From positions 124,001 to 188,000 of the forward strand of contig CAJVYC010000002.1 of the NCBI GenBank assembly GCA_913009205.1: a stretch of 64,000 bases of DNA, in the 5' to 3' direction. Of the stretch, positions 12,695-49,520 are shown one piece after another. This stretch comes from an uncultured Fluviicola sp. (GTDB lineage: Bacteria; Bacteroidota; Bacteroidia; Flavobacteriales_D; Crocinitomicaceae). The stretch's first letter is position 1. Each line of letters starts with the position of its first letter. The position numbers and the translations under genes are program-made. The notes under the pieces are model-generated. The model made no database searches, had not been told where the DNA came from, and saw only the letters and a program-made list of their open reading frames with translations.

Positions 12695-13816
12695 TTATTG
12701 AAACATGTCTTTCATTCGTTGGAAGAATCCTTTGTCGTGGTAATCTGGAGTTGGCTCAAAGTTTTCACTTTCTTTCAATTTTTCCAATATTTCTTTTTCT
12801 TCATTTGATACTTTCTTAGGCGTCCAAACATTGATATGAACGAAAAGGTCTCCTTGACCATAACGTTGTACCATTGGAAGTCCTTTGCCTTTCAAACGAA
12901 GCACTTTTCCACTTTGCGTTCCCGGATCAACCTTTATTTTTGCTTTTCCAGAAACGGTAGGAATTTCAATTGTTTCTCCTAGAACAGCGTCAACGAAGTT
13001 TACATAGGCATCGTAATGCAAATGTTCACCATCCCGTCTTAGGTTTTCATCTTCGAGTTCTTCAATAACAACGATCAAATCACCAGGGATTCCGTCAAAC
13101 GGGCCAGCATTTCCTTTTCCAGATACGCTCAATTGCATTCCTTCCTCAACTCCTGCGGGAATTTCAATTTCAACAACTTCCTCTTTACGAGTTAATCCTT
13201 GATCATCAACTTCTTTAGGCTTTTTATCAATCATTTTCCCAGCACCGCGACACACATTACATGTAGATTGTGTTTGCATGGCACCTAAGAAAGTTTGAGA
13301 AACTCGTGTGATACGACCTGTACCATTACATGTTCCGCAATCTTTATACGTCACACCGTGGGCATTCACCAACTTGTTGACTTTTATTTTCTTTTGAACA
13401 CCTTCAGCAATTTCCTGAAGCGTTAATTTCATTTTAACACGAAGGTTGGAACCTTTGATAACTCTGGATCCGCCGCGAGCTCCACCGAAACCGCCACCGC
13501 CACCGCCACCGCCAAAGATGTCGCCGAATTGAGAGAATATGTCATCCATATTCATTCCTCCACCGCCTCCACCAAAGCCTGAAGCGCCGCCCATTCCAGC
13601 ATGACCAAACTGATCATAGCGAGATTTCTTTTCAGCATTACTAAGTATTTCGTATGCCTCGGCAGCTTCTTTAAATTTATCTTCCGCAGCCGTATCATCT
13701 TCGTTTTTATCGGGATGATATTTCAACGCAAGTTTGCGGTATGCCTTTTTAATTTCTGCTGTATCCGCACCTTTGGAAACGCCTAATACTTCGTAATAAT
13801 CTCTCTTATTGCTCAT
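12695..13816 (-). CDS. dnaJ: chaperone DnaJ (two-motif zinc finger form)
   Basis: A 373-residue type I J-protein. The J domain has HPD at 34-36, followed by a Gly/Phe-rich linker (about 71-117) containing two long glycine runs. The cysteine-rich region has only two CxxCxGxG motifs, CGTCNGTG (160-167) and CNVCRGAG (186-193), instead of the four in E. coli DnaJ. The beta-sandwich client-binding domains follow. It stimulates DnaK ATPase and delivers clients. It starts 9 bp after grpE. The reduced finger can bind only one zinc and I believe it is normal for flavobacteria. Confidence 0.96.
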
Positions 13817-13825
13817 GTCATCTTG

Positions 13826-14368
13826 TTATTGCCCTACAACCACTTTAGCGTAACGAATTACTTTATCGTTTAGGTAATATCCTTTTTCTACTGCTTCGAT
13901 TACCTTTCCTTTCATTTTCTTACTTGGCGCGGGAACATTAGCAAGTGCTTCATGAATTTCACTATCGAACACTTCTCCCTCTGCTTTCATCTCTGTTAAT
14001 CCTTTCGCTTCAAGAACAGCGTTAAGCTTATTAAAAATAAGGTTAAACCCTTCTTTAACACTATCAATATCGTCAGCAGTTTCATTGTTGACTTTCGCTC
14101 TGTGCAAATCATCCATCACTGAAAGCAAGTCTCTCATCATTCCAGCATTTGCCGTATTTATGATGTCCACTTTTTCTTTGTTTGTTCTTTTTCTGTAATT
14201 ATCGAATTCAGCGTGAATTCTCATGTATTTGTCATTAAGCTCATTGAACTTGTCTTCAACAGTTGGTGCTTTTGGCGCTTCCTGCTCTTCAACAATTTGC
14301 TCATCCATAACTTGATCGTTAAGCTCTTTTTCGTTTTGATCGTTTTTCAAACCTTTTTCCTCTGACAT
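13826..14368 (-). CDS. grpE: nucleotide exchange factor GrpE
   Basis: A 180-residue protein from the ATG at 14366-14368. The frame stays open upstream to 14548, but that part is unlike GrpE and contains the promoter, so the start at 14368 is preferred. An acidic N-terminal tail leads into the long helix (EDKFNELNDKYMRIHAEFDNYRKRTNKEK), and the C-terminal beta domain ends in GYYLNDKVIRYAKVVVGQ, both diagnostic. GrpE releases ADP from DnaK. First gene of grpE-dnaJ-CPBP. A sigma-54-like promoter lies 30 nt before the start. Confidence 0.95.
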   Translation of the reverse strand: MSEEKGLKNDQNEKELNDQVMDEQIVEEQEAPKAPTVEDKFNELNDKYMRIHAEFDNYRKRTNKEKVDIINTANAGMMRDLLSVMDDLHRAKVNNETADDIDSVKEGFNLIFNKLNAVLEAKGLTEMKAEGEVFDSEIHEALANVPAPSKKMKGKVIEAVEKGYYLNDKVIRYAKVVVGQ

Positions 14369-14397: not shown

Positions 14398-14412
14398 ACA
14401 AAGATTCTGCCA
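14398..14412 (-). promoter_or_regulatory. sigma-54-like (-24/-12) promoter of grpE
   Basis: On the minus strand: TGGCAGAATCTTTGT. The -24 TGGCA and -12 TTG are separated exactly as in the consensus TGGCAC-N5-TTGC, with T replacing the final C. The element ends 30 nt before the grpE ATG, leaving room for a 5' UTR of about 18 nt. The htpG promoter has the same geometry. Confidence 0.6.
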
Positions 14413-14488
14413 TTAGTACAAATAGGACATGTTGGCAGTTAATTTTTTGAAAGGTGTGAAAAGTTGGCAGAGAACCTTGCCAAAACAG

Positions 14489-47500: not shown

Positions 47501-49390
47501 TTATATTAATTCGATACTTCTTTCAATAAACTCGTTCAATTCTTCTCCTTTAAGTAATCCCTGAGACAACAAAGCAATATCTGTTAACTGCTTAATCTTT
47601 CGCTCTTGGGACTTCTTTGTCTTCGTATTCAGAATATCACCTACTTTTTCGTGGTTGGCATTTACGACCATATTACGCATGTCTGGAAATGCTCCCATGA
47701 AGCCGCCTCCTCCCATCTTTTGTTGCTCCATCATTCGACGGATAAACTCGGGTTGGGTAATAATTACTGGCGCATCTTCTGAATTCATACTCTCAAACTG
47801 AACCGAGTACTTTTCTTTATTCACAACTTCTTCAAACAATGGTTTCAATTTATCCTCATCTTCTTTCGATAATTTTGAAGGAATTTCTTCGTCCTTCTGG
47901 ATCAATTTATCCAATGTGTCAGAATCAACACGAACAAACATGATGTTGTCATTCGATTGTTCCAATTTAGCAATCCAGTGAGGTGCTAAAGGGCCATCCA
48001 AGTGCAAAACATCATATCCTCTATCGTTCGCTTTCTTCACGAATCCAAATTGTTCCTGAGGATCATTCGTGTAAAGCATTACTATTTTAGCGTCCTTATT
48101 CGTTTGAAGCGCAGCAATTTTTTCTTTGTATTCTTCAATTGTTGCATGCTCACCTTTCGTATTTTTCAACAAAGTGAATTTATCCGATTTCTCAGCAAAC
48201 TTATCATCAGAAAGAGTTCCGTATTGAACGAAGATTTTCAAATCTTCCCATTTTGATTCAAAGTCATCTCTGTCCTTCTTAAACATTTGAGCCAATTTAT
48301 CCGCAACCTTCTTCGTAATGTGAGATGAAATCTTCTTCACGTTGCCATCACTTTGCAAATAAGATCTTGAAACATTCAAAGGAATGTCTGGAGAGTCTAT
48401 TACACCATGTAAAAGAGTCAAAAATTCAGGTACAATCTCTTCAACGTTATCTGTAATGAATACTTGATTTGAATACAAGTTGATTTTGTTCTTTTGAACC
48501 TCAACATTCTCTGAAATCTTAGGGAAATATAAAATCCCCGTCAAGTTGAACGGATAATCCACATTTAAATGAATGTGAAACAATGGATCTTCCATTGTCG
48601 CAGGATACAATTCACGGTAGAATCCTTGGTAATCCTCAATTGTCAAATCAGCAGGAGCTTTTGTCCAAGCTGGAGCTACGTTATTTACTTGATTTGGAAC
48701 TTCAAGAGAGACTCTCTTTACTTTACCATTCTCATCCTTTTCCCCACTTTCGTCATCTTCATAAACTGTTCGCATTCCAAAGAATACCGGTTGAGGCAAA
48801 AATTTACAATACTTGTCCAAAACCCCTTGAACACGTGCTTTTTCTAAAAATTCTTTAGATTCGTCTGAGATAAAAAGAACAATATCTGTTCCTCTTGTCT
48901 CTTTTTCAATTTCTTCAATTGTATATTCTGGATCTCCATTACTCTCCCACTGAACAGCTTTTGAACCTTCGTGACGCGATAATGTTTTGATCTGAACTTT
49001 TTCAGCTACCATAAATGCAGAATAAAACCCTAAACCAAAATGTCCAATGATTTGCTCAGCACCTTCTTTTCCTTCGTATTGCTTAACGAATTCTTCAGCT
49101 CCAGAAAAAGCAATTTGATTGATATATTTATCAATCTCATCTTCAGTCATTCCGATTCCATTGTCTCGAATCGTCAATGTTCCTTCCTTCTTATCAAGTA
49201 TTACTTCAACTTTCAACTCACCCAATTCGCCTTTGAATTCGCCGTTCGATGATAAAAACTTTAATTTTTGTGAAGCATCAACTGCATTCGATACCAATTC
49301 TCTCAAGAAAATTTCGTGGTCCGAATACAAGAATTTTTTAATGATTGGAAATATATTTTCCGTCTGTACATTAATCTGACCTGTTTTCAT
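47501..49390 (-). CDS. htpG: chaperone HtpG (Hsp90)
   Basis: A 629-residue Hsp90. N-terminal GHKL ATPase: ELVSNAVDASQKL (the ELISNASDA motif), DNGIGM, and IGHFGLGFYSAFMVA. Middle domain with the catalytic Arg loop (SRSYLQSDGNVKK) and a C-terminal dimerisation domain ending in GEELNEFIERSIELI. Full family length. Expected to fold or protect proteins during stress in the cytoplasm. The start is preceded by a sigma-54-like promoter 30 nt upstream, as in grpE. The DjlA-like gene follows. Confidence 0.97.
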   Translation of the reverse strand: MKTGQINVQTENIFPIIKKFLYSDHEIFLRELVSNAVDASQKLKFLSSNGEFKGELGELKVEVILDKKEGTLTIRDNGIGMTEDEIDKYINQIAFSGAEEFVKQYEGKEGAEQIIGHFGLGFYSAFMVAEKVQIKTLSRHEGSKAVQWESNGDPEYTIEEIEKETRGTDIVLFISDESKEFLEKARVQGVLDKYCKFLPQPVFFGMRTVYEDDESGEKDENGKVKRVSLEVPNQVNNVAPAWTKAPADLTIEDYQGFYRELYPATMEDPLFHIHLNVDYPFNLTGILYFPKISENVEVQKNKINLYSNQVFITDNVEEIVPEFLTLLHGVIDSPDIPLNVSRSYLQSDGNVKKISSHITKKVADKLAQMFKKDRDDFESKWEDLKIFVQYGTLSDDKFAEKSDKFTLLKNTKGEHATIEEYKEKIAALQTNKDAKIVMLYTNDPQEQFGFVKKANDRGYDVLHLDGPLAPHWIAKLEQSNDNIMFVRVDSDTLDKLIQKDEEIPSKLSKEDEDKLKPLFEEVVNKEKYSVQFESMNSEDAPVIITQPEFIRRMMEQQKMGGGGFMGAFPDMRNMVVNANHEKVGDILNTKTKKSQERKIKQLTDIALLSQGLLKGEELNEFIERSIELI

Positions 49391-49419: not shown

Positions 49420-49434
49420 TCAATCTCTATGCCA
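49420..49434 (-). promoter_or_regulatory. sigma-54-like (-24/-12) promoter of htpG
   Basis: Minus strand TGGCATAGAGATTGA: -24 TGGCA and -12 TTG with exact sigma-54 spacing (consensus TGGCAC-N5-TTGC, final C is A). It ends 30 nt before the ATG, identical to grpE. TGTCA/TGTCC half-sites and a second TTTGGCA lie further upstream (about 49447-49480). Confidence 0.6.
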
Positions 49435-49520
49435 CTGTACAATCTCTGCCAAACTGTCGCAGAATTTGGACAATGTGACACAATCCACTTAATATTGTTT
49501 ATTTTTACGCCAAAAAAAGG

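Follow-up and report, generated by a model that had tools for sequence, protein, structure and literature searches.

Introduction

In the related fish pathogen Flavobacterium psychrophilum, the mapped starts of groESL, lon, dnaK, grpE-dnaJ and htpG carry a sigma-54 motif named SM4, and these genes form the co-expression cluster B254. The exported-protein genes of that organism are mostly in another cluster, and the authors propose distinct activators, a matter that they left open (ISME Commun 2021, PMC9723704). A 2025 survey (Carrera-Reyna et al., PMC12316311) predicts sigma-54 phylum-wide for GroEL, GroES, GrpE, DnaJ, DnaK and IbpA, with the predicted control of chaperones showing enrichment in Bacteroidota and reaching its highest level in Flavobacteriia. 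Sigma-54 control of these chaperones is, then, already published and is not new. The survey is based on -24/-12 matrices. The main text of PMC9723704 contains no palindrome or activator site, and that of PMC12316311 no palindrome or upstream activating sequence. Our own literature search found neither an upstream palindrome nor a named activator; supplements and most subscription papers were outside its scope, and for this reason it is unproven that the repeat is new. The sigma-32 of E. coli and the HrcA/CIRCE system coordinate the same chaperone genes, whereas here there is a sigma-54 core and no CIRCE near grpE, htpG or groES.

The window analyzed here is a stretch of 64,000 nucleotides from an uncultured Fluviicola sp. 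(GCA_913009205.1, contig CAJVYC010000002.1) that includes grpE-dnaJ and htpG. The genome is like F. psychrophilum in having the same motif with the same genes, three PF00158 proteins and exported-protein targets. The starts in F. psychrophilum were mapped, whereas those in this organism are predicted. TGGCA-N6-TTG is carried by grpE, htpG, dnaK and lon, and a variant of it by groES, which corresponds to the SM4/B254 gene set. What the present analysis adds is an inverted repeat near -45 and a named candidate for the activator.

Results

A sequence-only reading of the window had singled out two 15-mers, one upstream of grpE and one upstream of htpG, as sigma-54-like promoters with exact spacing. 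Both are found on the minus strand where that reading had placed them (Table 1). The spacing is indeed that of sigma-54 promoters, as both sites read TGGCA-N6-TTG, with the GG at -25/-24 inside TGGCA and the G at -13 at the right distance. The scan pattern that had been offered with them, TGGCA-N7-TTG, has the wrong spacing and matches neither site; the correct spacer is N6. The invariant C at -12 is absent from the two window sites, where it is T (grpE) and A (htpG). Among relatives, C is common at this position in grpE. In a wider htpG set (80 named GTDB genomes, mostly Bacteroidota of the Flavobacteriales and Bacteroidales), 41 of the 52 aligned promoters have A at -12, and 51 of the 52 have the G at -13. 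The nearest named relative of htpG is from a Fluviicola MAG (82% identity), which makes the organism Fluviicola-like and a member of the order Flavobacteriales. An in-frame ATG at 14413-14411 (minus strand) lies within the -24 element of grpE and would give GrpE a 15-residue N-terminal extension. This upstream ATG is probably not the start codon, and automatic annotation may wrongly pick it.

Table 1 Features of the window and the three bEBPs of the genome
Feature	Position	Strand	Remarks
bEBP A, receiver and sigma-54 AAA+, no C-terminal HTH, 392 aa	2987..4165	-	~10 kb from grpE
dnaJ	12695..13816	-	Same operon, downstream of grpE; ORF list and sequence reading
grpE, 180 aa, conserved start MSEEK	13826..14368	-	Pfam GrpE; relatives begin at equivalent MSEE
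grpE predicted +1	14386	-	Inferred from sigma-54 geometry, 12 nt past -12; leader ~18 nt
grpE-dnaJ sigma-54-like promoter core, -24/-12, TGGCAGAATCTTTGT	14398..14412	-	Sequence scan
grpE proximal inverted repeat, GCCA-ACA-TGTC	14426..14436	-	13 bp upstream of TGGCA, centre ~-45
grpE second, degenerate copy, GCCA-ACT-TTTC	14458..14468	-	Register 45; conserved in same-genus grpE
htpG, Hsp90, 629 aa	47501..49390	-	Pfam HSP90
htpG predicted +1	49408	-	Inferred from sigma-54 geometry; leader ~18 nt
htpG sigma-54-like promoter core, -24/-12, TGGCATAGAGATTGA	49420..49434	-	Sequence scan
htpG proximal inverted repeat, GACA-GTT-TGGC	49448..49458	-	13 bp upstream of TGGCA
htpG second inverted repeat, GTCA-CAT-TGTC	49469..49479	-	Register 34
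bEBP B, AAA+ and HTH_8 (Fis-type), no receiver			3 kb upstream of groES
bEBP C, receiver and AAA+, C-terminal extension past the AAA+ lid			Beside a histidine kinase gene

The distance of 30 nt from the end of the site to the A of the start codon, which the same reading took as shared geometry, is correct for both genes (ATG at 14368 and at 49390). As a ground for sigma-54 it fails in relatives, where the distance from TGG to ATG varies between about 38 and 65 nt for grpE and htpG and between about 39 and 85 nt for groES; because of this variation, the equal distances in the window are a coincidence. The bare motif within one genome is likewise weak evidence, not significantly above chance. 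TGGCA-N6-TTG occurs 4 times in the window with 2.6 expected, and 113 times in the genome compared with 82 for the reversed pattern. The significance of the motif derives from its conservation at orthologous promoters, and not from counts in a single genome.

We compared the regions upstream of grpE, htpG, groES and dnaK in 30 genomes (this one, 18 of the same genus and 11 of other families), with shuffles preserving dinucleotide frequencies as the null model. A core score of at least 11.5 is seen in 19 of 28 grpE and 20 of 26 htpG upstream regions, compared to 0.4% of shuffles. For groES, 24 of 28 regions score at least 10.5 (2.7% of shuffles), and the same threshold is reached for htpG in 67 of the 80 genomes of the wider set (2.8% of shuffles). 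All 28 dnaK promoters that could be located have TGG(C/T)A-N6-TTG. The core of same-genus grpE is mostly TTGGCAGTATCTTTGC, and TGGCA-N6-TTG is present in most other families. Relatives have TGGCAYAGAGATTGAC before htpG and TGGCAYAAAGATTGAC before dnaK, the C at -12 being usually A or T in these two genes, while groES has the variant TGGCAYAAAATTSG with a degenerate -12 element. The expectation that the motif would also precede other chaperone genes is thus borne out in the genus and the order for dnaK and, in variant form, for groES. The clpC/gyrA region served as an accidental control, with scores mostly within the chance range; the ClpB_D2-small route to clpB mostly gave clpC beside gyrA, and a repeat attempt placed few clpB starts. 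This genome has only two ClpB_D2-small matches (ClpC- and ClpX-like), and most relatives have an extra ClpB-sized protein.

A single rpoN gene is present in the genome (2.82 Mb), along with three sigma-54 activators (bEBPs), all of full length. The RpoN protein is complete, with the AID, CBD and DBD Pfam domains all present. In the order, rpoN is found in 245 of the 245 members searched, and members without the gene, which we sought as natural controls, were not found among them.

Alignment of the promoters on TGGCA reveals a further common element, an inverted repeat of the form GACA-N3-TGTC, or more exactly GNCA-N3-TGNC, located 13 bp before TGGCA. At register 13, the same-genus promoters match 7.5 of 8 positions for grpE, 7.0 for htpG and 5.4 for groES, where the mean over all registers is about 2. 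A second peak is seen for same-genus grpE at register 45 (5.1 of 8). The proximal repeat in the relatives of htpG reads GACA-N3-TGTC, and at least 6 of 8 matches at registers 12-14 are seen for 64 of the 73 loci in the wider htpG set, compared to 1.2% of shuffles. The best register for dnaK is 23, with a 4-bp spacer, and this places the centre at about -55, one helical turn further; register 23 is likewise the best for groES of other families. The composite pattern CA-N3-TGTC-N13-TGGCA-N8-G, run over the 30 whole genomes with the reversed pattern as control, gives 47 matches versus 6, and 40 of the 47 are before grpE, htpG, groES, dnaK or trxA. Its only two matches in this genome are those of grpE (G000:C2:138399-138434) and groES. 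As the composite pattern was derived from these genes, their recovery is expected, and the weight lies in the small number of other matches. In two Chlorobiota MAGs (L513 and L516), htpG has the core TGGCACATCATTTGAT without the repeat at the expected register. A hairpin TGTCA...TGACATTTTTT upstream of groES in L086 and L135, which resembles a terminator for the preceding gene, has TGTCA arms in common with the repeat.

Within this genome, 100 TGGCA-N6-TTG sites were placed; 23 are intergenic, and of these 18 face a gene and 4 face only away. Among the genes faced are lon, trxA, dnaK and htpG, together with many exported or lipoprotein genes. With registers 12-14 or 22-24 allowed, the repeat is present at 5 or 6 of its 6 conserved positions in all six proteostasis promoters (lon, trxA, dnaK, htpG, grpE and groES). 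The level of 5 of 6 is reached by 0 of the 14 other sigma-54-like sites and by 1.5% of shuffles. Four of the six scored genes also defined the repeat, and the independent ones are lon and trxA, which were named by reading the protein sequences and not by a family search. The repeat splits the sites of this genome as the clusters of F. psychrophilum do, with the exception of trxA, which carries the repeat here, whereas a thioredoxin-family gene of F. psychrophilum sits in the other cluster. A sigma-54-like site is also seen 40 nt before a gene for an M48-family-protease-like lipoprotein (L137 6142, G000:C11:82142), two genes past rpoN.

The three bEBPs differ in their domain layout (Table 1). 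bEBP B precedes groES by 2.6-3.7 kb, in the same orientation, in 22 of the 22 genomes that have both on one contig. The 24 groES-linked bEBP sequences that we compared were picked by a search with the recognition helix, which makes the invariance of this helix partly a result of construction. The layout of bEBP B, an AAA+ domain and an HTH with no regulatory domain, is that of the PspF-type bEBPs, and the likeness is one of layout only.

Discussion

Judged from sequence and its conservation, grpE and htpG are very likely transcribed from sigma-54-type promoters. The broader proposal of the sequence-only reading, that chaperone transcription in this lineage relies on sigma-54, draws support from the conservation of the core, from the presence of rpoN in every order member searched and from the mapped starts of F. 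psychrophilum (PMC9723704). It is scarcely credible that the sites are chance matches in AT-rich intergenic DNA. The bare motif is insignificant in a single genome, but orthologous promoters, both within the order and in the wider set of mostly Bacteroidota genomes, keep it far more often than shuffles do, while the clpC/gyrA control mostly stays at about chance. Transcription of grpE by the housekeeping sigma-A from a TAnnTTTG -7 box, which several relatives have as TATCTTTG, with TGGCA as an incidental feature, is very improbable, even though the box and the core overlap in the grpE promoters of at least 10 same-genus members. The earlier remark that no clear TAnnTTTG box is present is correct for the grpE site of this genome, which reads GAATCTTTG, but not for several same-genus grpE promoters. 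In grpE of other families, TAnnTTTG is mostly lost and TGGCA-N6-TTG is mostly kept; in htpG and groES the box is at chance level; and in F. psychrophilum it is the sigma-54 motif, and not the sigma-A motifs, to which the mapped starts were assigned (PMC9723704). We rejected the sigma-A box because it occurs only in a subset of grpE promoters and is not conserved across orthologues. Control by CIRCE/HrcA was also rejected. In agreement with the sequence-only reading, which saw no CIRCE, the repeat TTAGCACTC-N9-GAGTGCTAA with up to 4 mismatches is absent from the 130 bp upstream of grpE, htpG and groES in the genomes compared.

The GNCA-N3-TGNC repeat is probably the site of an activator. The centre at -45 is unusually close for the enhancer of a bEBP, nearer than is typical and adjoining the polymerase, and the repeat could belong to another regulator. 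That it serves as operator for some separate regulator, a repressor or a conventional activator and not a bEBP, with sigma-54 activation coming from elsewhere, seems unlikely to us: the shift by one turn that dnaK shows, as does groES outside the genus (23 instead of 13 bp), fits a factor obliged to face the polymerase, sigma-54 promoters require a bEBP, and no other strong common element was found near the core. Counted against a separate regulator is also the resemblance of GNCA-N3-TGNC to the NorR site, GTCA-N3-TGAC. It is more doubtful still that the activator of the chaperones is bEBP A, the NtrC-like protein of the window, acting from solution like FlgR of Helicobacter. Its length of about 390 aa is conserved in the genus, and in many genomes it is found 5-16 kb from grpE on shared contigs, often in a syntenic arrangement; but it has no recognisable DNA-binding domain and, for that reason, cannot alone account for the conserved repeat. 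The simplest owner of the conserved palindrome would be bEBP B, and whether this groES-linked protein is the activator appears to us evenly balanced.

In the mechanism that we propose, sigma-54 RNA polymerase would use -24/-12 promoters to transcribe grpE-dnaJ, htpG, dnaK, groES(EL), lon and trxA. A dedicated activator probably binds the repeat at about -45 (about -55 in dnaK), both positions sharing one helix face. This activator would most likely be the groES-linked AAA+ protein with the Fis-type HTH_8 and no receiver, and it would remodel the closed complex upon protein misfolding. More tentatively, and with slightly less conviction than for the activator itself, this arrangement may represent a switch of the whole phylum, in which a receiver-less, groES-linked bEBP on the -45 palindrome, beside the polymerase and not at a remote enhancer, would place these genes under the control of chaperone availability, with sigma-54 replacing sigma-32/HrcA in heat-shock control.

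The manner in which chaperones are switched without sigma-32 is poorly understood in Bacteroidota, a phylum whose members abound in guts, soils and the sea and include fish pathogens. The palindrome and the candidate bEBP provide a specific and testable wiring for this control, and such a wiring would explain the separate co-expression clusters of the sigma-54 genes of F. psychrophilum.
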